In this document: positions 7,652 to 63,737 of the stretch, in pieces
Layout: each line of letters begins with the position of its first letter
How positions within the stretch are numbered: position 1 is the stretch's first letter
NCBI RefSeq assembly: GCF_000025625.1
Contig: NC_013923.1
Span: 124,001 to 188,000, forward strand
DNA from: Natrialba magadii ATCC 43099
GTDB taxonomy: Archaea > Halobacteriota > Halobacteria > Halobacteriales > Natrialbaceae
Direction of reading: 5' to 3'
Length of the DNA: 64,000 nt
Notes under the pieces: generated by a model
Told to the model about the DNA's origin: nothing
What the model saw: only the letters and a program-made list of their open reading frames with translations
Databases searched by the model: none
Translations under genes and position numbers: made by a program

Positions 7652-7849
7652 CTACTCCGTCGCCTGGGGCGTCCCCTCCTGGGGCCACAGTGCCCAGACG
7701 AGAATCAACACAATCAGCCCGATGCTGAGGACAACGGACTCGAGTACGGTGAGTTCGACGTTGACCCACGCAAGCACTGTCCGAAGCTCGACGATGAGTG
7801 GTGCGGTGAACGCGATGACGATGAGCAACGCGCCCTTCGAGATCCGCAC
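7652..7849 (-). CDS. cbaC: Small membrane subunit of ba3 oxidase (CbaC-like)
   Basis: A 65-residue protein starting with GTG two bases after the cbaA stop codon. It has two hydrophobic helices (LLIVIAFTAPLIVELRTVL and VVLSIGLIVLILVWALW) and a short polar tail. The same small protein with the shared VIELRTVLA core follows cbaA in the second oxidase cluster at 63546, which confirms that this short frame is real. The position matches the fourth gene of the cbaDBAC operon described in Natronomonas pharaonis. Its exact role in the complex is not known. Confidence 0.75.
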   Translation of the reverse strand: MRISKGALLIVIAFTAPLIVELRTVLAWVNVELTVLESVVLSIGLIVLILVWALWPQEGTPQATE

Positions 7850-7851
7850 TC

Positions 7852-9624
7852 TTAACGCACCCCCGTGATGATTGCGATGGCGGTGTCGACGCCAGACGTC
7901 ACCGTCGTCACGACGGTGGTCCACAGGTACTCGAGTCCGAGTCCGATGCTCACCGGAAGCTCGTTGAGTTCGGGGCCGAACAGGCCGCCGCGTTCGATGA
8001 TCGACAGCAGTGGGAAGGTGTAAGCGAAGATCACGAGCACGATGGCGATGGCCGTCCAGAGCTTCAGGTTGTCGAGGACCAGTGGGGCGTCCGAGGGGCC
8101 CGAGAGCGTGTCAGCGTACCCGTTCGCTGGGAGGTCGTCGCTGCGGTTGTTGAGCACTGTTCCGATGATGTTGGCGAAGAACAGCACGAGCGAGAGCGTC
8201 AGCAGGAGACCACCGAGTGCGATCTGGGCGTCGAGTTCGCCGACGCTGCCGACGGCGGCTTCGAACTCGAAGCCTTCGTACTGGGGTTCTGCTGTTCGTC
8301 GCGGGATGCCGAGGAGACCAGCGCGGTGCATGGCGTTCGACATGAACGTCATTCCAACGAACCAGAGGACGACCTGACCCAGTGCAACCGAGCGGTTCCA
8401 GAGTGCCTTGCCGGTCACCTGTGGAAGGAACCAGTAGGTGACGGCCATGAACGTCAGTGCGACGCCGGTCCCGACGGTGAGGTGGAAGTGGCCGACGACC
8501 CAGAAGGTGTTGTGCACGAGGTAGTTGATGTTCATTCCGGCGTTGATCATTCCGGAGAAGCCGGCTGCGGCGAACATCAGTCCGGCGAGTGCCATACCCG
8601 CGAACACCGGATCACGCCACGGGAGCGCTTTCAGCCAGCCGAGATAGCCGCTGCCTCCGCGCTGGCGAGCGCCGTGTTCCATACTGGCAACGACAGTAAA
8701 GGCGGTGAGTAAACTGGGCAGCAGTAAGAACATCGTGTTTGTCATCGCGATGAACTTGAATCCCTCAGCGATGCCGGGATCGAGATACTGGTGGTGGATC
8801 CCGGTTGGTACCGAGAGGATCAAGAACAGAACGAAGACGACGCGTGCGAGCGGGTCGCTGAACAGCTTTCCGCCGGAAATCTTCGGCAACATGATGTACC
8901 ACATCATGTAGGCTGGCATGAGCCAGAAGTAGACAATCGGGTGGCCGAAGAACCAGAACAGCGTTCTGGTGAGAAGCGGGTTCACCGACTCGATGATGCC
9001 GAGCGACCACGGCAGCAAGAACAGCAAGATTGCGGCGGCAACGCCGAGCGTGGCGATGTACCACATCAGCATCGTGGTCAACACCATAAACGTCGGCAAC
9101 GGGATCCGCTCGTCCGGGTTCTCCTGTTTCCAGGCCAGCCACGAACGGAACCAGTCGGCTCCTGCGAGCCAGGTGCCAACCACGAACAGTACCAGTCCGA
9201 CGTAAAACAGCGGATGGCCCTGCAGCGGTGCGTAGAACGTAAAGAGCACCGACGCACTCATCTCCGAGTCCGTGAACCCGGCGAGGATCGGAACGGCAGC
9301 GAGGATCGTTCCGAGTACCATCAGTCCGTACCAGAACCAGGTAAAGCGGATATCCTCGACAGGCCGGTCCAGACTCGTCGTTATCGCCCAGGTAAAGATC
9401 GCGACGAGGAAGAAGATCGTGAACGTAATGACGAGAAAGACACCGTGTGCGGTGAGCACGGTGTAGTAGTCCGCCGAGTCGATGAATCGGTAATAGCCGG
9501 TTCGGTGAAGCGTCTGAATGATCCCGAACAGGCCGCCGATTGCGAGCGCGAGGAACGAACTGTAGAACGCCGCGCGAACGACCTTCGCTTCTGCGGGGAA
9601 CGATTCAATGTAGGTGTTCGTCAT
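7852..9624 (-). CDS. cbaA: Cytochrome ba3-type oxidase subunit I
   Basis: A 590-residue haem-copper oxidase subunit with about a dozen membrane helices. Ligands are visible: low-spin haem His60 (TAHGVFL), CuB His228 with the cross-linked Tyr232 (GHPIVYFW), CuB His277 and His278 (GIHHQY), and haem His379 and His381 (GHFHLTVG). The tyrosine four residues after the first CuB histidine and the lack of canonical D/K-channel motifs fit the B-type (ba3) family. It reduces oxygen to water and conserves energy as a proton gradient. ATG overlaps the subunit II stop by four bases, so the operon is tightly coupled. A second copy is at 61765. Confidence 0.95.
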   Translation of the reverse strand: MTNTYIESFPAEAKVVRAAFYSSFLALAIGGLFGIIQTLHRTGYYRFIDSADYYTVLTAHGVFLVITFTIFFLVAIFTWAITTSLDRPVEDIRFTWFWYGLMVLGTILAAVPILAGFTDSEMSASVLFTFYAPLQGHPLFYVGLVLFVVGTWLAGADWFRSWLAWKQENPDERIPLPTFMVLTTMLMWYIATLGVAAAILLFLLPWSLGIIESVNPLLTRTLFWFFGHPIVYFWLMPAYMMWYIMLPKISGGKLFSDPLARVVFVLFLILSVPTGIHHQYLDPGIAEGFKFIAMTNTMFLLLPSLLTAFTVVASMEHGARQRGGSGYLGWLKALPWRDPVFAGMALAGLMFAAAGFSGMINAGMNINYLVHNTFWVVGHFHLTVGTGVALTFMAVTYWFLPQVTGKALWNRSVALGQVVLWFVGMTFMSNAMHRAGLLGIPRRTAEPQYEGFEFEAAVGSVGELDAQIALGGLLLTLSLVLFFANIIGTVLNNRSDDLPANGYADTLSGPSDAPLVLDNLKLWTAIAIVLVIFAYTFPLLSIIERGGLFGPELNELPVSIGLGLEYLWTTVVTTVTSGVDTAIAIITGVR

Positions 9625-10523
9625 TCGTCGTCACCTCCGCTGGCATCGCTCTCGTTCTCGTCTGTGTCGCTTTCGTCTTCGGTATCGCTCTCGTCCTCGT
9701 CGCCGTCATCGTCTGCATCTGTGTTTTCGTTGGTTTCTTCGTCTGCATCGTCGTCTTCGAGTTCATCGACCACGGTCACACTCCAGCTGTCAGTGTAATC
9801 ATCGACCGTCACCGTCCAATCGTGGTCGCCCTCGCCTAGCTGTGCCGAGTCGACGGTGAACGTCGTCTCGTACGTCTCTTCGCCGTCGATCGTCACGTCT
9901 TCACTGAACGTCTCGTTCCCGATTTCGAGCGCGACTGTCGTCTCGATCGGATCGAGTTGCCGGTTCTCGACGGTCGCAGTAACATCGATATCGTCACCGG
10001 TTTCGACTTCGTCGGGTGCATCGGCCTCGAGTTCCGTTAGGTCAAATTCGTCTTCAGGAACGACCTGGACCATCCCCTCCATGTCGTGGTGGCCTGGGCC
10101 ACAGTACTCGTTACAGACGACACCGTATTCCTGTGGCTCGTCGAATTCGACGGCCATCTCGGATACCTCACCGGGGATAACCATCGTATTGACGTTGGTT
10201 CCGACGAGGCTGAAGCTATGAATAACGTCCCGACTCGTGACGTAGAACGTCACTTCACTGTTTTCGGGGACGACAACCGGATCAGGCTGGAAACTAAATA
10301 TCTGAGCCGTCACGTAGGCTTCGTACTCGTTCTCGCCGACCTGTGCAACGCGTGGGTCGTCGAACCGGTCGCCGTCGAGCTCGGTCGGTTCGACCGTATC
10401 CTGCTGGTCGCCGACCATCGTGATTCCCAGCCCGACTGAGCCGTACGTGATCGTCGCGATGAAGGCGACGATCAACACCATCGCTGCAACCAGCCACAGT
10501 TTTTCGTAGGTGTGTATATTCAT
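9621..10523 (-). CDS. cbaB: Cytochrome ba3-type oxidase subunit II with CuA
   Basis: About 300 residues: one N-terminal membrane anchor (about 8-30), then a cupredoxin domain with the full CuA signature. The binding residues are the histidine in RDVIHSFS and the set CNEYCGPGHHDM, with two Cys, a His and a Met. A CARDB-like beta domain (about 165-255) and a very acidic D/E/T/S tail follow. CuA accepts electrons from a cupredoxin or cytochrome and passes them to subunit I. The start MNIHTYEKL at 10523 matches the paralogue MKIHTYERL in the second cluster and overlaps the preceding gene by four bases. Confidence 0.93.
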   Translation of the reverse strand: MNIHTYEKLWLVAAMVLIVAFIATITYGSVGLGITMVGDQQDTVEPTELDGDRFDDPRVAQVGENEYEAYVTAQIFSFQPDPVVVPENSEVTFYVTSRDVIHSFSLVGTNVNTMVIPGEVSEMAVEFDEPQEYGVVCNEYCGPGHHDMEGMVQVVPEDEFDLTELEADAPDEVETGDDIDVTATVENRQLDPIETTVALEIGNETFSEDVTIDGEETYETTFTVDSAQLGEGDHDWTVTVDDYTDSWSVTVVDELEDDDADEETNENTDADDDGDEDESDTEDESDTDENESDASGGDDE

Positions 10524-10747
10524 AGCAATCGCTCTCCAGTTGCCAGGAGTACCAGGGTCCCACCGACGACTGTGGGGTCGTTTCCGAGGAACTCGACGAA
10601 ATACATGAAGAACCACAAGAACACCAGGATCAGGAAATAGACCCCGATCAGCGTGAGCGTCCCGATCGGATCGAACTCATCGTGTCCGATCTCCCGGGCG
10701 TGCTCCGGTGTTTCATTGCTCGCTTTCTTTTCGGCCGTCTGGCTCAT
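10520..10747 (-). CDS. cbaD: Small ba3 oxidase subunit (CbaD-like)
   Basis: A 75-residue protein with one transmembrane helix (LTLIGVYFLILVFLWFFMYF). It resembles subunit IIa of ba3 oxidases, which replaces a missing helix of subunit II. The core HDEFDPIGTL is conserved in the paralogue at 60808 (HDEFDPYGTL). It is the first gene of the minus-strand operon; a TATA-like box about 25 bases before the ATG suggests leaderless mRNA. Its C-terminus after FVEFLGNDP is longer than the paralogue, partly because it overlaps cbaB. Confidence 0.82.
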   Translation of the reverse strand: MSQTAEKKASNETPEHAREIGHDEFDPIGTLTLIGVYFLILVFLWFFMYFVEFLGNDPTVVGGTLVLLATGERLL

Positions 10748-10848
10748 ACGACCGGGTTAGAACAGTCATTACTTAGCGTTAGAAGCGGATTACCGGTTTG
10801 TTGGAATGGGGTGTACTTCTTAAGAGTCTCCACTCCTCACCTCTTTGC

Positions 10849-11073
10849 ATGGAATTTGAGGACGCGTCCCCGCGAGTAGCGTTACCGGTCGGATTGATCG
10901 CTCTCCTCCCGCTGGCGTGGTACGGTATCAGCGACTCTGTCATGGCTGGCATCGTTTCGGCTGTAAATGTCGTACTTATCCTTGCATGCCTCTATATCGC
11001 GTTCAGTCCCGTGGAGAGCGCCCACGAACACGGCCATGACCGCGATCACGACTCGAACGGCACCACACCGTAA
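10849..11073 (+). CDS. Small membrane protein of the ba3 oxidase cluster (CbaE-like)
   Basis: A 74-residue protein with two hydrophobic helices (VALPVGLIALLPLAWYGI and VNVVLILACLYIAF) and a His/Asp-rich tail (EHGHDRDHD). Its paralogue at 63812 has the same SPR...VG..ALIP and VSAVNVV core and is the last gene of the second cluster. Here it is divergent from cbaD, with a TATA-like CTTAAG box about 29 bases upstream of the ATG. The His-rich tail could bind copper or another metal, but that is inference. The function of this family is not established. Confidence 0.7.
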   Translation: MEFEDASPRVALPVGLIALLPLAWYGISDSVMAGIVSAVNVVLILACLYIAFSPVESAHEHGHDRDHDSNGTTP

Positions 11074-11323: not shown

Positions 11324-13852
11324 ATGACCGATCAGTTCCCTGACCACGACTCGCCCTCCCCGGATTCCGTGCAGGCAGCCGGTGACTCTTCGTCTACTCG
11401 AGTCTCCCACGCCGGCGACGAGGACGTTCCCGACGAGCAGCCAAGTGGCTGTACCCTCTGCTCACTGCCGCTTCCGTCTCCCCCGATTACTGCATCCGAT
11501 GCCCCGGGGCAATTCTGCTGTCAGGGCTGTCTCGAGGTTTCACGGACACTCTCGACGGTCGAAACCGATGCGGACGAGTCACAGATCGACCCAGCAGCCA
11601 TTCGGGAGCGGATTGCTGACAGTGCCGACTCTGGCGAACAGGGCGACGAAGCACAGACCGACGCGGAGTCAGCGTCAGCAGCCGAGGCCAACGATGCGTT
11701 CCTGACCGTCGAAGGAATGCACTGCTCGACGTGCGAGGTATTCCTCGAGTCGGTTGCCGAATCGAACGACGGCATCCTCGCGGCTGAAGCCAGTTACGCA
11801 ACCGAGACGGTTCGGCTCGCGTACGATCCGGAGACGGTCGAGTCGGGCGAGCTCCCCGAGTTGATTTCCGGGTACGGCTACGCCGCACGCGAACGCGGCA
11901 CGGCCGACGACGAGTCGGATGCAGCCAACCAGGCGCTCGTGAAGTTCCTGATCGGTGGCGGACTCTTTGGGATGATGGTGATGGTGTGGTACGCCGTCTT
12001 TCTCTACCCCACCTACTTCGGCTACGACCCGGTCGTCGACTTCGGCAGCTACGACGGCTACTACCTCGCGGTCAACATCTGGCTGATGACCACGTTCGTC
12101 CTCTTCTATACTGGGTATCCGATCCTGCGAGGGGCGCTCGTGAGCCTCAGAGCAGGTCATCCGAACATGGACCTGCTCGTCACGACCGCTGCGGTCGGCT
12201 CCTACAGCTACAGCACCCTCGCCATGACGCTCGGCCGAACGGACCTCTACTTCGACGTTACCGTCGCCGTCATCCTCGCTGTCACCGCCGGCACGTACTA
12301 CGAGGAGCGGATCAAACGCCGCGCCGCGGGCCTCCTCTCTGATCTCACCGAACAGCAGGTCGACGAGGCTCGTCGGGTGGACGGCGAAACGGTTGCACTC
12401 GAGTCCGTCGAGCCAGGCGACCACCTTCTGGTCCGTCCCGGAGAACGTGTCCCTCTCGACGGTCAGTTGCAAGAGGGGACGGCCGCCGTCGACGAATCGC
12501 TGGTCACGGGTGAGTCACTCCCCGTCCAGAAGGAACCGGGTGATGAGTTACAGGGCGGAACAGTCGTTACCGACGCGCCGGTCGTCCTCGAGGTCGGTGC
12601 CGACGCGACGAGTACGCTCGATCGACTCGTCTCGCTGCTGTGGTCCATCCAGAGCGCCCGGCCCGGCGTGCAGCGCCTCGCCGACAAGTTAGCGACAATT
12701 TTCGTCCCGCTCGTACTCATTCTGGCGACCGGTGCGACTGGCGTGTTGCTCGCCACTGGATCCTCGATCTCGGAGGCACTGCTCGTCGGCTTGACCGTCG
12801 TTATCGTCTCCTGTCCCTGTGCGCTGGGGCTTGCGACCCCGCTTGCAATCGCGTCGGGCGTCCAATCCGCCGCAAAGCGCGGCATCGTCGTCGCTGCAGA
12901 GACGATTTTCGAGGACGCTCCTGACGTCGACGTCGTCGTCCTCGACAAGACGGGGACGCTCACGACCGGCTCGATGACGGTCGCATCTATTCAGACGATA
13001 GCCGGGGTCGACTCGAGTGCACTCCATCGCCGGGCGGCTGCGGTCGAAGCGCTCTCCGAGCATCCTATCGCGGAGGCCATCGTTTCGGACGCGCCAGCAG
13101 GGGACTCGGACGACCACGCGAGAGCGGCGGTTGCGGAGTTCGAGCGCAATCAACGGGGAGTGAGCGGTCTCGTCGACGGCGAGCGGGTCACTGTCGGCCA
13201 CCCCGACTACCTTCGAGATCGCGGCCACGAACTTCCCTCGACCCTCGAGGAGGTCGTCGAAGAGGCCCGGACAGCAGGGGACGTTCCGGTCGCAGTCGGC
13301 TGGGATGGTTGCGTCCAGGGAGTGCTCGTCGTCGGTGACGCGCCGCGTGAGGAGTGGCGGGAAGCAGTCAACTTGCTCGCGGACGGTCGTGAGGTCATCG
13401 TCCTGACCGGAGACGACGGCGGCGCGGCTGACCGATTCCGCGAGGTTACTGGGGTCGACGAGGTGTTTGCCGGCGTGCCGCCGGCGGCTAAAGCCGAGAC
13501 GATTCGTCGTCTCCAATCGAGAGGAACGGTTGCGATGGTCGGCGACGGGAGCAACGATGCACCGGCGCTCGCCGCTGCAGACATCGGCATTGCGATGGGG
13601 AGCGCGACGAAAATTGCGACTGACGCGGCGGATGCGGTGATCGTCAGCAACGACCTTGCGGCCGTTCCCGACACGTTCGATCTGGCTGCGGGGACACACA
13701 GCCGGATCCGACAGAATCTCGGCTGGGCGTTCGTCTACAACGCGATTGCTATTCCGCTCGCTTTGACAGGGCTGTTGAATCCACTCTTTGCTGCGCTGGC
13801 GATGGCTGCCAGTAGCGCACTCGTCGTGATCAATTCGGCGCGCTCGCTCTGA
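11324..13852 (+). CDS. Copper-translocating P1B-type ATPase
   Basis: An 842-residue heavy-metal ATPase. The N-terminus has a Cys cluster (CTLC at about 43-46, CCQGC at about 66-70) typical of CcoI/FixI-like pumps. An HMA domain with GMHCSTCE (about 130) follows, then the CPC motif in helix 6 (SCPCALGLATP, about 495), the phosphorylated aspartate in DKTGTLT (about 541) and the hinge GDGSNDAPAL (about 740). The CPC motif and N-terminal cluster point to Cu(I). CcoI-type pumps supply copper for oxidase assembly; the position beside the ba3 operon supports this role over simple copper resistance. That assignment is inference. Confidence 0.88.
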   Translation: MTDQFPDHDSPSPDSVQAAGDSSSTRVSHAGDEDVPDEQPSGCTLCSLPLPSPPITASDAPGQFCCQGCLEVSRTLSTVETDADESQIDPAAIRERIADSADSGEQGDEAQTDAESASAAEANDAFLTVEGMHCSTCEVFLESVAESNDGILAAEASYATETVRLAYDPETVESGELPELISGYGYAARERGTADDESDAANQALVKFLIGGGLFGMMVMVWYAVFLYPTYFGYDPVVDFGSYDGYYLAVNIWLMTTFVLFYTGYPILRGALVSLRAGHPNMDLLVTTAAVGSYSYSTLAMTLGRTDLYFDVTVAVILAVTAGTYYEERIKRRAAGLLSDLTEQQVDEARRVDGETVALESVEPGDHLLVRPGERVPLDGQLQEGTAAVDESLVTGESLPVQKEPGDELQGGTVVTDAPVVLEVGADATSTLDRLVSLLWSIQSARPGVQRLADKLATIFVPLVLILATGATGVLLATGSSISEALLVGLTVVIVSCPCALGLATPLAIASGVQSAAKRGIVVAAETIFEDAPDVDVVVLDKTGTLTTGSMTVASIQTIAGVDSSALHRRAAAVEALSEHPIAEAIVSDAPAGDSDDHARAAVAEFERNQRGVSGLVDGERVTVGHPDYLRDRGHELPSTLEEVVEEARTAGDVPVAVGWDGCVQGVLVVGDAPREEWREAVNLLADGREVIVLTGDDGGAADRFREVTGVDEVFAGVPPAAKAETIRRLQSRGTVAMVGDGSNDAPALAAADIGIAMGSATKIATDAADAVIVSNDLAAVPDTFDLAAGTHSRIRQNLGWAFVYNAIAIPLALTGLLNPLFAALAMAASSALVVINSARSL

Positions 13853-47322: not shown

Positions 47323-48549
47323 ATGAGTAGCGAACACTACAACTGGTCGAAACAGTCACTCGACGAACTGCAGGAGTGCTGGCGGACCGACATCGAGCCC
47401 GAACTTCGACGAAACGGCGTCGATCTCACAACGCGGCCAACCTACCAGGACGTCACCGACGCCGGCTTCTCGGGAATCGCCTACGCACTTCGCGAACACC
47501 ACGAACTGACGCTCTCGGAATTTCTGGCGACCGTCGGCTACGAGGACAGAGACACCGGTGCGTCGTTTCAATGGGGGATCGAGGACGAATCCACGATCAC
47601 CGAACTCGAGTCCTACCTGCGAACGCTCGAGCGTCGCCGCCAACTCGCCGAGACGACGGTACGGACGAAACAGTCTCGACTGGCGACCTACACCCGGTTG
47701 TACCGTGAGCTCCACGGGAAAGCGAATCTCGTCGAACGCGTCGCTGACTCGGATGCGGAGAGCGAGGAAATCCGCCGCGCACTCGCGGTGTTCGACGAAC
47801 TGAACGCCGACCTCGGGACTGACGCCTCGAAGCTACGCTATCACAGCGACGTCTCTCAGTTCTACGAGCACCTCGAACGACGGGCGAAAGCCTCGTTCAA
47901 CCCCGTCGAATCGATCGATGAGGAGTACAACTGGTCTCGAGCCGATCCAGACAACGCGGCCCTCTCACCCGAACAGGTCCGGACAATCTACGCCGCTGCG
48001 GACGCTCCGTCCGACGAACTGCTCGTTCTGGCACTCTGTGCGTGGGGACTGCGCCGAAACGAGGTTGCGAGCCTGCACGTCTCCCAGCTTGAACTCGAGT
48101 CCGACGAGCCACACATCGTGTTCGAGGAGCGAAAGAACGGGCCGGGAACGGTCGCGTTGATCTATGGCGTGCCGGAACTGTCTAATCGGGTCGACGAGTT
48201 GGGTGCAGGCAATCGCAACTGGTCGGGATATCTGTTCCCGTCGCCGAACGCGAACCGTGATCATGTTACCGGCGAGACCGTTCAGGCACGGTTTCAGCGC
48301 CTTGCAGACCAGGCTGACGTGCGCGTTCGGGGCGAACGTCCGACGTCAAAAATGGGCCGGCGCTTCTGGTATACGACGTACAACGAGGCGATGAGCGACT
48401 TACTCGAGAACCTGGACACAATCGCGGCCGATCAGGGCAGTGCTGATGCGTCTGTCGTGTTGAAGAACTATCTGTCTGAGGCTGAACGGCGGGAATATCG
48501 TCGTGATTTCATGCGTGAACGGCTCGCAGCGGTGTTTGGGGCCGAGTGA
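47323..48549 (+). CDS. Divergent tyrosine recombinase/integrase-like protein
   Basis: A 408-residue protein. The N-terminal 90 residues look like a DNA-binding leader; a SAM-like core-binding domain follows (about 90-190). The catalytic half has CAWGLRRNEVASL (first catalytic Arg, about 239), EERKNGPGTVAL (Lys of the beta hairpin), SKMGRRFWYTTYNEA in place of the usual H-x-x-R box (about 341-355) and a late tyrosine (KNYLS or REYRRDF, about 380-392). The altered box II lacks the usual His. No att-like repeat or tRNA was found beside it, so it may act in the chromosome rather than as a provirus integrase. Confidence 0.72.
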   Translation: MSSEHYNWSKQSLDELQECWRTDIEPELRRNGVDLTTRPTYQDVTDAGFSGIAYALREHHELTLSEFLATVGYEDRDTGASFQWGIEDESTITELESYLRTLERRRQLAETTVRTKQSRLATYTRLYRELHGKANLVERVADSDAESEEIRRALAVFDELNADLGTDASKLRYHSDVSQFYEHLERRAKASFNPVESIDEEYNWSRADPDNAALSPEQVRTIYAAADAPSDELLVLALCAWGLRRNEVASLHVSQLELESDEPHIVFEERKNGPGTVALIYGVPELSNRVDELGAGNRNWSGYLFPSPNANRDHVTGETVQARFQRLADQADVRVRGERPTSKMGRRFWYTTYNEAMSDLLENLDTIAADQGSADASVVLKNYLSEAERREYRRDFMRERLAAVFGAE

Positions 48550-48934
48550 TGGCTACCGTGTCCGTGATCGTGTGTTGGCGGTTGGACTCAGGCTCCATCT
48601 CCAGGTGGTGTCCGTAGATCGATCTTCGCTCGAGTAGTCGGTAGCTGGGTCACCTGCGTTCAGCAATAGCTTCGATTCGACTGTTCCGTAGAGCGGTTTT
48701 CGATAAACCACATATTGCAATATTATTCTGGCGTGCTGAAGGCAGGCACGTCACGGATAATCGGTTGGATTTCTCAGTGCATCTGAATCTGAATTGGTCG
48801 ATTCGGCAACTACATGTACGAGCTGTTTACTATGGTTCTCCTCAGTTATGGATGATATTCTGCAATTTCCTAACTGAGGAAGAGTCTGAGACAGAACCCG
48901 TATACTATTATCCAATCACTCTTTACAATAAACG
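48550..48934. other. AT-rich gap in the accessory region
   Basis: These 385 bases show no convincing gene. From about 48830 the sequence (CTCCTCAGTTATGGATGATATTCTGC...) is a diverged copy of the stretch at about 49410-49445, so the tandem duplication that follows includes upstream DNA. Confidence 0.45.
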
Positions 48935-49261
48935 ATGGCCAGCGATTCAGACCAAATCTTGGGGTATCAACGCAAGGTTGTATTACTTGAGGCATTTCGA
49001 ATTTCCTATGCGATAATGATTACTGGAATAATAACAACCCTAATGGGATTCAGTCTTTACTGGATTGATACCGGAATATTGGGGGACGCAGAACCAGTCA
49101 TCGGCGTTATACTGTTTGTGGCTTTCCCGATAGCACTTGGCCTTAGCCTGTACATTTATGACCGCCGCCACGAACGAGACTTGATTATCGCCGATGCGGT
49201 ATTGAAGGTGATTCACCCCATCGCTGCATTGATTCGTTATCTCCGGGGTGCGGGACCGTAA
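48935..49261 (+). CDS. Two-helix membrane protein, first tandem copy
   Basis: A 108-residue protein with two transmembrane helices (AIMITGIITTLMGFSLYWI and VIGVILFVAFPIALGLSLYIY) followed by a charged turn DRRHERDLIIADAV and an amphipathic end. The second copy 230 bases downstream shares the GY-RK--LEA-R-SYAI start and the SLYIYDRRHE-DL-IADAVL core. No known family. The product probably sits in the cytoplasmic membrane, perhaps as a small accessory or defence-related factor, but nothing in the sequence fixes its role. Confidence 0.6.
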   Translation: MASDSDQILGYQRKVVLLEAFRISYAIMITGIITTLMGFSLYWIDTGILGDAEPVIGVILFVAFPIALGLSLYIYDRRHERDLIIADAVLKVIHPIAALIRYLRGAGP

Positions 49262-49866
49262 CAAGCATACTCTACAGAATTGTTATCAGACTCCATAGAG
49301 AAGGAGGAGTTGCTGTGGTAACTATCTCATCCGAACTGACTATATTACTTTATTTAACTATTACCAATATGGAGAAGAGTATTTTGAAGGTATGTCGAAT
49401 TTGCCACCATAACTCTCCTCAATTGTAGATGCTATTCTGCTATTTCCTAACGGAGCAAAGAACTATTATGTAAGCCACACGTTATTACAAATGATGACCA
49501 ACGAGACAGACCGAATCTACGGGTATCCACGCAAGACAGTGATATTGGAGGCCTGCCGACTCTCCTATGCAATAGCAATTGCCGGTGCAGTAACGCTACT
49601 GGCAGGCCTTGGTCGTTACTGGGCTGATTCAGAAATACTGAGAAGCGCAGAACCATTCACCAGCGTTATACTGTTAGTGGTTTTCCCGATAGCACTCATC
49701 CTTAGTCTGTACATTTATGACCGCCGCCACGAAGAAGATTTGGTTATCGCCGATGCGGTATTATATGTCATTCAACCTATTATCCGTCTTCTCAAGAGAG
49801 TGTAACAACCATACTCTACAGAATTGTTGTAGTTTCCAGAGAGAGAAAATAGAGTCGCTGGGGTAC
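49262..49866. repeat. Tandem segmental duplication (downstream half)
   Basis: The upstream word TTCTGC-ATTTCCTAAC and downstream word CATACTCTACAGAATTGTT occur around both membrane-protein genes in the same order. The repeated unit is about 550-600 bases, covering roughly 48840-49310 and 49415-49866. Copies have diverged by substitutions and small indels. Confidence 0.6.
49491..49805 (+). CDS. Two-helix membrane protein, second tandem copy
   Basis: A 104-residue paralogue of the preceding gene. Two helices (AIAIAGAVTLLAGLGRYWA and SVILLVVFPIALILSLYIY) are followed by DRRHEEDLVIADAVL. Flanking DNA is also duplicated: CATACTCTACAGAATTGTT follows the stop of both copies. The two proteins differ at roughly half of their positions, so the duplication is not recent, yet both frames stay open, which argues for selection. 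Confidence 0.6.
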   Translation: MMTNETDRIYGYPRKTVILEACRLSYAIAIAGAVTLLAGLGRYWADSEILRSAEPFTSVILLVVFPIALILSLYIYDRRHEEDLVIADAVLYVIQPIIRLLKRV

Positions 49867-50024
49867 TGGCTCACCTGTACTGAACGCGATTTTCACTCCC
49901 CACACTGTTCTCAATTTCGTAAGAATAAGAATCTTACCTGCCAATCAAGAATCCGGCAGTCCAGTTCATCAATTCTGTAGAAAATCACATACTCTTATAT
50001 AGAGCATTTCTCGTCCAGTCGTAC

Positions 50025-59088: not shown

Positions 59089-59701
59089 ATCGTCTGTTCC
59101 GACGGCCTGTTCAATAACTTCGAGGGGCAAACAGAGTTGTGAATCGAACCCGAACAAAGATAGCTACCAGGTTTGTCGTCCACCTATCATTTTTTGGCCG
59201 AGTCACCTGGTACTACCGGAGATAACACGGTATTTCGCCCACAATACATTACAACAGTACCCATGTAAAGAACGTAAATACTCCCGTACCAGTTTGGGAG
59301 CTGGTCTCAACGGAAGACAACAGTGCTGAAACAGTCTGCACGCGCTGCCAAAGATGCAATTGTATTTACAGTAATCACTTTCGACCGGGTAGTGAACGGC
59401 GTCCACAATTTCAATCTGCAATACAACCCGCTGTGGACAGCGACGGTGTACCCACAAACACAACACTGGCATCCCGAGAAACGGGGACAACAAACTGCAA
59501 ATCACCAGTCGAGTAGCCGCCCGAATCGAGTACTCCCCCGATTAGCACAGTGTGCTGGCTCCTCGCTCTTCGTGCAACTCGAGTAGTACCCGTTGGGAGC
59601 GGTGGAGTTCGGAACAGGTCATCGGGACAGTTCTGGAGCACCATTTTGTCTCTGTATCGGCGCTTGTTCGAGTGATTCCCGGTACGTGCTTCGTTGAGCC
59701 G
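59089..59701. other. Intergenic region without a recognised gene
   Basis: These 613 bases contain only open frames with no recognisable protein pattern. The stretch 59190-59470 is relatively AT-rich. The only structural feature is the long inverted-repeat element that begins at its right edge. Confidence 0.4.
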
Positions 59702-59991
59702 GTATAGTAGCCACTGCAAGTCACTGCACACCTGATCGCACGACGGCAGCGCGGTTCGGAGCGAGCGCGGTTCGGAACGAACGAAGTGAGTGAGAACCGC
59801 GGACCGCGAGCGGGGAACAACGTGACCCGCGAGCGAACGAAGTGAGTGAGAACCGCGGACCGCGAGCGGGGAACAACGTGACCCGCGAGCGAACGAAGTG
59901 AGTGAGAACCGCGACACAGCGAACGGGGAACAACGTGACCCGTGAGTGGGCTGTGCGATCAGTGTGTAACGAGTTGCAGTTGTTACTATAG
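59702..59991. repeat. CTATAGTA element, long copy F (inverted relative to copy E)
   Basis: A 290-bp reverse copy of element E: ends TATAGTAGCCACTGCAAG (left) and CTATAGTAACAACTGCAACT (right, other strand). The middle has three 56-bp tandem units starting at about 59781, 59837 and 59893, one more than copy E, plus two CGCGGTTCGGAGCGAG-type units. E and F are nearly identical over the shared 200 bases and face each other across 7.3 kb. Confidence 0.87.
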
Positions 59992-60119
59992 GTGAAGCGT
60001 ACATCCGATCACCGTGATTGCTCTGAAACGGCCCTCGTTCCCCGAATAGGGACTCCTTGACGGCGTGCCAAGAAAGTGCCTGCCGCGAGTTTACCGGTCT
60101 GGATGGCGAATGGTGTGGT

Positions 60120-60632
60120 ATGCCACCAACCGACCGACGCTCCCGGCGAACGCTGCTCTGCGCGCTCGCGAGTGGTGTCGGAACCACCCTCGTCGCGGGT
60201 TGTACCGAGGGAATGGGTGACGGTGAGGCAGATCCGGAACCTGATCGCGACGACGCGGACGCAGACGACGCTGATCCTCCAGATACCGGGTGGGAGGATG
60301 AGTGGGAGGACGTTGAGACGATCGAACTCGAAGCGCACGCTGACGACGGGTGGATCGGCCGCCGTCCAGCATCGATCGACGGCGTAGAGAATCCGGACAT
60401 CGCTCTGTACGAGGATCGTGAGTACGAGTTCGTTTGGACGAACACCGACGGTGACGTCCACAACTTTGCTATCTGGGACGATGAGGACGAACCCCTGGTT
60501 TCAACTTCGTTTGTCGAGGAAGAGGACGAAGAAATTACGGCCGACATCACAGCCAGTGAGGAGATGGCGGTGTACCTCTGTGAGACCCACGAGAGAGAAA
60601 TGGAGGGGTCGATAGAGATTCGGACCGAGTAG
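60120..60632 (+). CDS. Cupredoxin TAT lipoprotein (halocyanin-like)
   Basis: A 170-residue protein. SRRTLLCALASGVG...LVAGC is a twin-arginine signal with a lipobox (Cys28). A very acidic linker follows (about 33-66). The C-terminal domain has a type-1 copper set: His114 (GDVHNFAI), Cys154, His157 and Met161 (YLCETHEREMEG). It would carry electrons on the outer membrane face. It is 175 bases upstream of the second ba3 cluster, so it is the likely donor to its CuA, as halocyanin is in other haloarchaea. Copper binding is predicted, not shown. Confidence 0.85.
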   Translation: MPPTDRRSRRTLLCALASGVGTTLVAGCTEGMGDGEADPEPDRDDADADDADPPDTGWEDEWEDVETIELEAHADDGWIGRRPASIDGVENPDIALYEDREYEFVWTNTDGDVHNFAIWDDEDEPLVSTSFVEEEDEEITADITASEEMAVYLCETHEREMEGSIEIRTE

Positions 60633-60807: not shown

Positions 60808-60969
60808 ATGGACGACGCACCTGCTCGGAAAATAAGCCACGACGAATTCGATCCGTATGGGACACTCGCGTTGATTGTCCTGTACTTTATCATCCTTATT
60901 TTGATGTGGGCATTTACCTACTTCGTCGAGTTCGTCGGTAACGCTCCGACGCCGATGATCGTCCTGTGA
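60808..60969 (+). CDS. cbaD: Small ba3 oxidase subunit, second cluster (CbaD-like)
   Basis: A 53-residue single-helix protein: HDEFDPYGTLALIVLYFIILILMW (abbreviated) followed by FTYFVEFVGNAP. It is the paralogue of the product at 10520. The ATG at 60808 follows a TTTATTAG TATA-like box by about 28 bases, so it heads a leaderless operon. A longer upstream frame is not credible, since the helix start and acidic leader match the first cluster. Confidence 0.82.
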   Translation: MDDAPARKISHDEFDPYGTLALIVLYFIILILMWAFTYFVEFVGNAPTPMIVL

Positions 60970-60979
60970 GTTGGCACCC

Positions 60980-61768
60980 ATGAAAATACACACCTACGAA
61001 CGACTGTGGTTAATCGGCTCAATGGTGTTGATCGTCGGCTTCATCGTCACGATTACGTATGGGACCGTCGGGCTCGGGATTACCATGATCGGCGACGAAG
61101 AAGACGCGCTCTCACCGGACGATATCAACGACGACGAGCGCTTTGCAGAGCCTGGCGTCGAACAGGTAGGTGAAGACGAGTTCGAGGCACACGTCGTCGC
61201 TATGACGTTCATATTTCAACCGGATCCGATCGAAATACCGGCCAACAATGAGGTGACTTTTTATGTCACATCACGGGATGTCATCCATAGCTTCACTGTC
61301 GTCGGAACGAACACGAACACGATGGTCATCCCTGGCGAGGTGTCGACGATGACCGTTGAATTCGACGAACCCGGGGAATACGGCGTCGTCTGCAACGAGT
61401 ACTGTGGCTCTGGACATCACGACATGGAAGGAGAGCTAATCGTCCACCCTGAAGACGAGTTTGCGCTGACCGAACTCGAAGTGGACGCACCGGATACCGT
61501 CGAGCCCGACGACGAGTTCGAACTCGCGGTAACGGTCGAGAACGGATTGCTCGAGGATCTCGACACCACGCTTGCGGCAGAGATCGGTGATGAAACGTTC
61601 GAAGAGGACGTCACGGTCGCGGGTGATGAGACCGAAACGGTGACGATCGACGTCGACGCCGAAGAGCTCGGCGAGGGAGAACACGACTGGTCGGTCACGG
61701 TTGACGACGAAACCGAGAGCGGTTCCGTGACGGTTGAAGAAGCGGATGACGGGGGTGACGAGTCGTGA
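60980..61768 (+). CDS. cbaB: Cytochrome ba3-type oxidase subunit II with CuA, second cluster
   Basis: A 262-residue subunit. MKIHTYERLWLIGSMVLIVG begins one membrane helix (MKIHTYERL quoted as the family start). The CuA set is complete: RDVIHSFTVVG and CNEYCGSGHHDMEG. A CARDB-like beta domain follows (about 165-250), but it lacks the long acidic repeat tail of the first copy. The gene is 10 bases after cbaD and overlaps cbaA by four bases (GTGA). Confidence 0.93.
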   Translation: MKIHTYERLWLIGSMVLIVGFIVTITYGTVGLGITMIGDEEDALSPDDINDDERFAEPGVEQVGEDEFEAHVVAMTFIFQPDPIEIPANNEVTFYVTSRDVIHSFTVVGTNTNTMVIPGEVSTMTVEFDEPGEYGVVCNEYCGSGHHDMEGELIVHPEDEFALTELEVDAPDTVEPDDEFELAVTVENGLLEDLDTTLAAEIGDETFEEDVTVAGDETETVTIDVDAEELGEGEHDWSVTVDDETESGSVTVEEADDGGDES

Positions 61769-63537
61769 GTGATCTCTTCGTCGACAGATATCCCGATCAG
61801 GCACGGGTCGTCCGTGCAGCGTTTACGACCGCGTATATTGCTCTAGGAATCGGTGCGCTGTTCGGTGCCTTGCAGGCGTTGCACCGGACCGATATTCTAC
61901 GACTCGTCGAGTCGACGACGTACTATACCATTCTAACCGGACACGGCGTCTTTCTGGTCATCTCCTTCACAATCTTCTTTCTCGTAGGGCTTTACCAGTG
62001 GGCGGTGACGGACAGCCTGAATCGAGGCCCTGTCGACATGCGTCTCACCTGGACGTGGTACGGGTTGATGTCGATTGGGACGTTGTTGGCTGGGATCGCG
62101 ATACTGGCAGGGTTTCTGGACGATCCACCATCTGTTCTCGGCTCCGAACTGAGCGCCGACGTTCTCTTTACGTTCTACGCACCGTTACAGGCGAACCCGA
62201 TCTTTTACATTGGGCTCGTCCTGTTCGTCGTTGGAACGTGGCTCGCCGGCGCCGACTGGTTCCGAACCTGGTGGGCATGGAAGAAGGAAAACCCGGGCGA
62301 ACGGATCCCGCTTCCAACGTTCATGGTGTTAACGACCATGATCATGTGGTACATCTCCTCGATCGGGGTGGCAGTCGCGATCCTCGCGTTTATCCTGCCG
62401 TGGTCGCTCGGCCTGATCGATAGTCTCAACCCCACGCTAACCCGGACGTTGTTCTGGTACTTCGGCCACCCAGTCGTCTACTTCTGGCTGTTGCCCGCAT
62501 ATATGCTGTGGTACATCGTCCTGCCAAAGCTCTCGGGCGGCCGGCTGTTCAGCGACCCACTGGCACGCGTCGTCTTCATCCTCTTCGTGTTGCTCTCAAC
62601 GCCGGTCGGTATTCACCACCAGTACCTTGATCCGGGAATCTCTGAAGGATTCAAATACATAGTAATGACAAATACCATGTTCCTCCTGTTGCCGAGCCTG
62701 TTGACAGCCTTTACCGTCGTCGCAAGTATGGAACATGGGGCGCGCCAGCGCGGCGGTGAGGGCACGTTCAACTGGCTCCGAGCGCTCCCCTGGCGTGACC
62801 CTGCGTTCACGGGAATGGCCCTCGCCGGTCTCGTCTTTGCATTCGGCGGATTTACCGGAATCGTCAACGCCGGCATGAACATCAACTATCTCGTCCACAA
62901 CTCGCTGTGGGTGCCCGGCCACATCCACACGCAGGTCGGGACTGCCGTCGCGTTAACGTTCATGGCCGGATCGTACTGGTTGATTCCACAACTGACCGGC
63001 AACCGTCTGGTTGGACGCCAGCTAGCACTGGTACAGGTCGTCCTCTGGTTCGTCGGAATCGTCTTCATGACGAACTCGATGTACCGGGGTGGGCTGATTG
63101 GAATCCCCCGGCGAACCGCGGAACCGCAATACTCGTTCGACTACGAGATTGCCGTCGGCTCGATTCCCGAACTCCGCGCCCAGCTTGCCATCGGCGGCAT
63201 GTTACTGTTCATCTCTGCACTGCTCTTTCTGACGATTATCCTCCTGACTGCGTTCAACAACGACAGCATCCCCGTCGTCGACGGGACGATTCCGCCGGCA
63301 CTGTCCGGTCCCGAGGACTCACCTCGTATTCTCGACGACCTTCGGGTATGGATCGCGATTGCACTGGTCCTCATCGTTATCGCCTACGCCTTCCCGCTCG
63401 CCAATATCGTGAGCCGCGGCGGGTTGTTCGGTCCTGACATCGGACCCTTCCCCGTCATCGTGGAAACCCTTACGTCTCTTCCGCCAGTCGCCGACGCATC
63501 CATGTACCTCGAGACCGTACTCGACGGTAAGTCCTAG
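61765..63537 (+). CDS. cbaA: Cytochrome ba3-type oxidase subunit I, second cluster
   Basis: A 590-residue subunit, starting GTG (MSDLFVDRYP). Ligands match the first copy: TGHGVFLV (haem His near 60), GHPVVYFWLLPAY (CuB His and cross-linked Tyr), GIHHQYLDPG (two CuB His) and PGHIHTQVG (two haem His). Where the first copy has VGHFHLTV this one has PGHIHTQV. The long conserved stretch FTFYAPLQ and HHQYLDPGI shows common ancestry. Oxygen reduction chemistry is expected to be the same; affinity or expression may differ. Confidence 0.95.
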   Translation: MSDLFVDRYPDQARVVRAAFTTAYIALGIGALFGALQALHRTDILRLVESTTYYTILTGHGVFLVISFTIFFLVGLYQWAVTDSLNRGPVDMRLTWTWYGLMSIGTLLAGIAILAGFLDDPPSVLGSELSADVLFTFYAPLQANPIFYIGLVLFVVGTWLAGADWFRTWWAWKKENPGERIPLPTFMVLTTMIMWYISSIGVAVAILAFILPWSLGLIDSLNPTLTRTLFWYFGHPVVYFWLLPAYMLWYIVLPKLSGGRLFSDPLARVVFILFVLLSTPVGIHHQYLDPGISEGFKYIVMTNTMFLLLPSLLTAFTVVASMEHGARQRGGEGTFNWLRALPWRDPAFTGMALAGLVFAFGGFTGIVNAGMNINYLVHNSLWVPGHIHTQVGTAVALTFMAGSYWLIPQLTGNRLVGRQLALVQVVLWFVGIVFMTNSMYRGGLIGIPRRTAEPQYSFDYEIAVGSIPELRAQLAIGGMLLFISALLFLTIILLTAFNNDSIPVVDGTIPPALSGPEDSPRILDDLRVWIAIALVLIVIAYAFPLANIVSRGGLFGPDIGPFPVIVETLTSLPPVADASMYLETVLDGKS

Positions 63538-63545
63538 ATCCCCCG

Positions 63546-63737
63546 ATGCGAACCTCCCCTGCCAAACTTTTGATCCTGATCGCGTTGATCTTCGTAATCG
63601 TCATCGAACTACGAACGGTACTCGCGTTCTTCGACATCGAGACGAGTATCCTCGAAGCAGCAGTCGTCAGCATCGTCGCGACACTCATCGTGATCGCCTG
63701 GGCGTTCACTCCGTCGAGTACCAACGCTGACCAGTGA
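63546..63737 (+). CDS. cbaC: Small membrane subunit of ba3 oxidase, second cluster (CbaC-like)
   Basis: A 63-residue protein with two helices (LLILIALIFVIVIELRTVLAF and VVSIVATLIVIAWAF). It is eight bases after cbaA and parallels the product at 7652 (shared VIELRTVLA). ATG start. Confidence 0.75.
   Translation: MRTSPAKLLILIALIFVIVIELRTVLAFFDIETSILEAAVVSIVATLIVIAWAFTPSSTNADQ

Follow-up and report, generated by a model that had tools for sequence, protein, structure and literature searches.

Natrialba magadii ATCC 43099, an archaeon that thrives in salt and alkali, carries two ba3-type haem-copper oxidase clusters in the DNA analysed here (positions 124,001 to 188,000 of NC_013923.1; this whole stretch of 64,000 nucleotides is called the window). 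We propose, with a probability of about 0.6, that the second cluster (copy 2, from window position 60808) encodes a specialised ba3 isozyme with a dedicated electron donor, which is kept beside the canonical enzyme of the first (copy 1, 7652-11073). As judged from sequence comparison, the two enzymes probably have different jobs. Both clusters are intact and under selection, their subunit I proteins (CbaA) belong to two clades, one of them marked by clustered substitutions, their neighbouring genes differ, and copy 2 is found or missing as a unit among related genomes.

The two enzymes differ in the haem-ligand loop of subunit I, which reads GHFHLTV in copy 1 and GHIHTQV in copy 2. The original prediction, made from the letters of the window, had named these motifs; both are as described, and the contrast turned out to be a fixed clade marker. 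A tree was computed from 121 haloarchaeal CbaA sequences and Thermus with a quick method, and it was rooted by Thermus on a very long branch. All 31 GHIH sequences formed one group (Shimodaira-Hasegawa-like approximate likelihood ratio test, SH-aLRT, 100) and the remaining sequences were all GHFH, with one change on the tree. This group joins the GHFH proteins of Natrialbaceae to the exclusion of other haloarchaea (SH-aLRT 94), by which the CbaA split seems to be placed on the Natrialbaceae stem, the branch itself being less sure. By this phylogeny, the split of the copies is old and predates the genus, and a recent local duplication is ruled out, given a CbaA identity of 66% and two clades that parted before the genus. 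Scanning 391 sampled genomes of the class for GHIHTQV gave 29, all in the family of the window (f1), and among the nearer relatives GHIHTQ was also present in G102 and G105, which belong to other families of the order; the canonical GHFH[L/M]TV is distributed over the whole class.

All ten B-type outgroup proteins read, which come from plasmids of bacteria and archaea, have Phe between the two His, as does the A-type-like COX1 protein of N. magadii itself; this Phe is present in copy 1 and replaced by Ile in copy 2 and the entire GHIH clade. Because this Phe is a conserved feature and not a ligand, the Ile is compatible with B-type membership. The GHIH clade has thirteen fixed substitutions that other sequences show rarely or never. 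Of these, 11 fall between residues 355 and 440 (Thermus numbering), in the haem-ligand helices, a region that includes both haem ligands of this helix. When sites were drawn at random 20000 times from columns of equal conservation in the clade, no draw was as clustered along the sequence. A limited set of papers contained no earlier description of the GHIH clade, which is a variant of a known enzyme, and a literature search on F385 in ba3 found no papers.

Both clusters are, by their sequences, intact B-type haem-copper oxidases under purifying selection. CbaA1 and CbaA2 align over 565 amino acids (aa), and the CbaB copies are also 66% identical. The Pfam COX1 scores of 290 bits (copy 1) and 287 bits (copy 2) lie so far above the cut-off of 34.8 that a chance match is excluded, and CbaB of both copies is above the cut-off of Pfam COX2. 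The haem b ligands H72 and H386, the haem a3 ligand H384 and the CuB ligands H233, H282 and H283 (Thermus numbering) are invariant in the 121 haloarchaeal sequences, both copies included. The cross-linking Tyr in the helix of the CuB His distinguishes oxygen reductases from nitric oxide (NO) reductases, and this residue (Y237), judged as a residue only, is present in all sequences and in both copies. The K-path analogue (Y244, Y248, S309 and T312) is invariant in both CbaA clades, and the CuA motif C-x3-C-x3-H-x2-M occurs in 82 of 82 CbaB rows. Pairwise ratios of nonsynonymous to synonymous substitution rates (dN/dS) against close relatives were 0.057-0.069 in copy 1 and 0.067-0.077 in copy 2; neither copy has stop codons. 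With such low ratios in both, neither copy is decaying, and the decay of one, which had been named as an outcome that would speak against two distinct enzymes, is ruled out. The claim of two distinct and complete ba3 clusters thus stands, with all catalytic residues in place.

The closest solved structures of CbaA1 are those of Thermus ba3, and CbaA2 matches Thermus ba3 as well, its AlphaFold model giving template modelling (TM) scores of 0.78-0.80 when taken by query length and 0.84-0.85 when taken by target length. The model is weak at residues 371-385, beside the haem-ligand loop, with a predicted local distance difference test (pLDDT) value below 50, and we therefore took no reading from it there. 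The fold, all ligands and the K-path residues agree with the Thermus thermophilus enzyme (1EHK, 3S8F), in which the residue separating the haem ligands is Phe385; copy 2 has Ile there. At positions 133 and 231 of the oxygen channel, Thermus ba3 carries Tyr and Thr, and both haloarchaeal copies carry Phe. Mutants of the Thermus enzyme had been engineered to have bulky residues at these two channel positions. Cytochrome ba3 of Natronomonas pharaonis (cbaDBAC with cbaE; NP2960A-NP2968A, Mattar and Engelhard 1997 as cited in PMC3403918) was compared by description. Gene order, subunit set, and CuA and haem b/a3-CuB residues are alike; copy 1 agrees with it throughout, whereas copy 2 departs from it in having GHIHTQV where the haloarchaeal motif is GHFH[L/M]TV, a co-directional downstream cbaE, and a halocyanin-like gene of its own.

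Each cluster contains the full set of five genes (cbaD, cbaB, cbaA, cbaC and cbaE). The clusters and their partner genes are laid out in the window as follows:

7652..7849, minus strand: cbaC copy 1, a two-helix membrane protein of 65 aa; called from open reading frame and position, and in a neighbour-survey cluster common with copy-2 cbaC
7852..9624, minus strand: cbaA copy 1, subunit I, 590 aa; GHFHLTV haem-ligand motif; Pfam COX1, 290 bits; GHFH-type in the tree
9621..10523, minus strand: cbaB copy 1, CuA subunit II, 300 aa; C-terminal extension and acidic tail; Pfam COX2, 40 bits; C-x3-C-x3-H-x2-M
10520..10747, minus strand: cbaD copy 1, one-helix subunit (IIa-like); called from position and a family cluster over 80 loci
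10798..11073, plus strand: cbaE copy 1, divergent; start at 10798 or 10849; family cluster
11324..13852, plus strand: Cu-translocating P1B-type ATPase, 842 aa; HMA domain and CPC motif; TIGR01511, 427 bits, and TIGR01525, 481 bits
60120..60632, plus strand: halocyanin-like lipoprotein; likely start ATG at 60120; twin-arginine translocation (Tat)/lipobox signal; H...C-x2-H-x3-M
60808..60969, plus strand: cbaD copy 2; family cluster
60980..61768, plus strand: cbaB copy 2, CuA subunit II, 262 aa; Pfam COX2, 40 bits; CuA motif present
61765..63537, plus strand: cbaA copy 2, subunit I, 590 aa; GHIHTQV haem-ligand motif; Pfam COX1, 287 bits; AlphaFold model matching Thermus ba3
63546..63737, plus strand: cbaC copy 2; family cluster
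63812..64012 (L004:4812-5012), plus strand: cbaE copy 2, co-directional; stop 12 bases beyond the window end

The cbaDBAC genes of copy 1 read leftward from 10747 to 7652 with the copper ATPase to their right, and copy 2 reads rightward from 60808 with the cupredoxin lipoprotein upstream. Coordinates and strands bear out the predicted pair of five-gene clusters, with cbaE divergent in the first and co-directional in the second. Both lie on pNMAG01, a replicon of 378,348 bp in a genome of 4,443,643 bp (four contigs). The genome paper (PMC3403918, 2012) lists cbaDBAC operons Nmag_3754-3758 and Nmag_3802-3805 on pNMAG01, with 38-65% identity, and the halocyanin Nmag_3800, so the bare observation of two clusters was already known. 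Its second gene range does not include cbaE, which is present in copy 2 in our analysis, and its account of the two operons holds no subclade, haem-loop difference or neighbour comparison. A search for expression literature on the cba locus tags found only this paper. Elsewhere in the window, positions 48001-50000 have a GC content of 0.49 as compared with about 0.60 in the rest, possibly a mobile or foreign stretch.

The neighbours of the two types were compared at 82 loci, each taken with no more than 10 kb of flank, 68 GHFH-type and 14 GHIH-type, both window clusters being counted. A copper ATPase adjoins 63 of the 68 GHFH-type clusters versus 2 of the 14 GHIH-type clusters. Where GHFH-type loci have cbaE, the gene is nearly always divergent, and at GHIH-type loci it is co-directional or not found. 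The contrast in partners that had been noticed in the window therefore holds across the family and not in this genome alone. The ATPase had been called CcoI-like; it is a Cu-translocating P1B ATPase (TIGR01511, 427 bits against a cut-off of 397; TIGR01525, 481 bits) with a Cys-rich N-terminal stretch that has no assigned domain. Its Pfam matches were HMA, E1-E2 ATPase and hydrolase domains; a domain specific to CcoI was not among them, and the name is borne out in part. The two GHIH-type loci with a copper ATPase are L135 and L138, where it lies downstream in the opposite direction. One of them (Natrialba taiwanensis) has no copy 1, a picture that would fit an ATPase retained by the sole remaining ba3 cluster.

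The lipoprotein gene upstream of copy 2 (60120-60632) encodes a lipobox signal and a complete His-Cys-His-Met copper-ligand pattern, both read directly. Searches of Pfam, NCBIfam and the PDB gave no match to the protein, and we therefore name it halocyanin-like; its identity to six further proteins encoded in this genome is 37-43%. Its relatives adjoin GHIH-type clusters in 11 genomes, including early branches, and among the surveyed loci none stood beside copy 1 alone; the one case next to a GHFH-type cluster is G084, in which both clusters adjoin. Of the different oxygen conditions or donors that the original prediction had suggested, distinct donors have genomic support here, as a halocyanin-like gene is kept adjoining many copy-2 clusters; the sequence gives no sign of distinct oxygen conditions. 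The subunit II tails, also said to differ, do so in their acidic ends; a C-terminal extension of about 95 residues after the CuA domain is common to both copies (window 9621-9990 and 61420-61768) and to most Natrialbaceae, and the difference is minor. CbaB lengths are 248-306 in most Natrialbaceae compared with about 170 in most other haloarchaea, and the extension has an Ig-like Pfam match below threshold.

Copy 2 was found in 29 of 149 relative genomes, 28 of which also have copy 1 (the exception, G004, matches Natrialba taiwanensis), and it is missing from 69 of the 98 genomes holding copy 1. This distribution indicates that copy 2 is an addition to copy 1, not a replacement. The copy-1 counts are based on protein searches, because the DNA pattern GHFH[L/I/M]TV matched falsely in G002, G004 and G005; at least one of these false matches, that in G004, is an NrfD-like protein. 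Both copies lie on one contig in 16 genomes; in 5 of these they are less than 60 kb apart, at distances of 7 to 54 kb, and in the rest the distance is 0.26 to 2.6 Mb, so that close linkage is not upheld as a conserved trait. On a 378-kb replicon, the chance that two random loci are no more than 54 kb apart is about 29% (2 x 54/378), and with both copies on one such replicon their proximity alone is weak evidence. On the question of local duplication or transfer, which the original prediction had left to the CbaA phylogeny, an old split before the genus is what emerged, and the nearness of the copies in this genome is not conserved.

In a genome of the same genus (G006), the flanks align up to window position 59128 and from 64073 onward, with 1.07 kb between them in which no oxidase or halocyanin remnant was detected. 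This clean empty site suggests that the halocyanin-like gene and copy 2 are present or absent as a unit. The CBS-domain gene near copy 2 of N. magadii adjoins copy 2 in G013, which belongs to another genus, where egsA and CBS-domain neighbours flank it as in N. magadii. Since the CBS-domain gene persists at the empty site, loss of copy 2 from G006 is favoured over gain in N. magadii, although this is unproven. Short repeats at 59703-59765 and 59950-59992 occur in dozens of copies in Natrialba genomes and also at the empty site; many 63-bp copies in G006 are 97-100% identical, and they are perhaps repetitive extragenic palindromic (REP)-like or transposon-derived. In G084 (L184:4032-17999), copy 1, the ATPase, the halocyanin-like gene and copy 2 stand side by side in one 10-kb block, and just upstream lies a third oxidase of the haem-copper type, with about 33% identity to CbaA1. 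The orientations are the same as in the window, and derivation of the window from this compact order by a 46-kb insertion was considered; it is not supported, because much of window 2.5-39 kb is collinear with genomes of the genus that have no copy 2, which makes this stretch the ordinary flank of copy 1.

How the two enzymes might divide their work can be sketched as follows. Copy 1 represents the canonical haloarchaeal ba3 oxidase of the lineage, and the adjoining ATPase probably supplies or balances copper for its assembly. Copy 2 represents an old Natrialbaceae paralogue, a second ba3-type oxygen reductase predicted to reduce oxygen and pump protons. Its electrons probably come from the upstream halocyanin-like lipoprotein and, as family knowledge suggests, would pass through CuA in CbaB2 and haem b to haem a3/CuB in CbaA2. 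The fixed changes (Ile in place of Phe between the two His, Thr-Gln in place of the Leu-Thr that follows them, and neighbours in the same helices) may tune the haem potential or haem-to-haem transfer to the donor or growth conditions, and the two clusters may be separately regulated. We further speculate, tentatively and with more doubt than expectation, that the GHIH clade is a functionally separate ba3 class, in which the altered residues between and behind the two His have reset haem b-to-haem a3 transfer for a dedicated, co-inherited halocyanin, so that Natrialbaceae would have two ba3 branches for different conditions.

Several observations weigh against a specialised copy 2. The subunit II tree has no clean copy-2 clade and requires four changes, so that subunit II is less distinct than subunit I, although a single clade was not rejected (approximately unbiased test, p 0.08). 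The halocyanin-like gene is absent beside some copy-2 clusters, such as the Natronorubrum and Natronolimnohabitans loci. In a minority of the copy-2-linked relatives (L130, L134 and L184) the axial Met is replaced by Gln, which could lower the donor potential. The six other halocyanin-like relatives in the genome are alternative donor candidates, and the clustering test was devised after the sites had been seen. A rival reading is that of redundant isozymes doing the same job with the same donors, with copy 2 persisting in some lineages by chance or because of dosage. All known catalytic residues are identical in both copies, and copy 2 is dispensable, being missing from most copy-1 genomes and cleanly so from the sister species G006. 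We nevertheless consider redundancy rather unlikely in view of substitutions fixed over 31 sequences and concentrated in the haem-ligand helices, the differing conserved neighbours, and long-term purifying selection on both copies.

A specialised isozyme is also preferred over a shift of copy 2 to another main activity, for example NO reduction or detoxification, or the sensing or scavenging of oxygen with little energy conservation. The changes do lie around haem b and haem a3, and ba3-type enzymes have some NO reductase activity, but Y237, the CuB His, the K-path residues and CuA are all retained, and no nitrogen-oxide genes were recognised among the listed copy-2 neighbours, most of which were judged from the start of their sequences; such a shift appears very improbable. 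Recent horizontal transfer of the copy-2 cassette into the genus would be compatible with specialisation, and we regard it as possible rather than probable. It would fit the presence of copy 2 in only 2 of the 7 Natrialba genomes searched, which are far apart in the copy-2 tree, the places where that tree departs from genus lines (G084 is separate from its genus mates), and the empty site in G006. On the other hand, the CBS-domain and egsA flanks in G013 and the CBS-domain gene at the empty site fit loss from an ancestral site, and the composition of copy 2 (GC 58%, third-position GC 74%) is only slightly under that of copy 1 (60% and 81%).

Among the oxidases compared, the residue between the haem-ligand His is Phe except in the GHIH clade, where its replacement is kept. 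The ancestral and the altered enzyme in one organism offer a clean natural comparison for the role of this residue in inter-haem electron transfer. Natrialbales have no bc1 complex, and their electron route to the terminal oxidases has been described as unresolved (PMC8305020); the halocyanin-like lipoprotein would be a candidate specific electron donor in this group.

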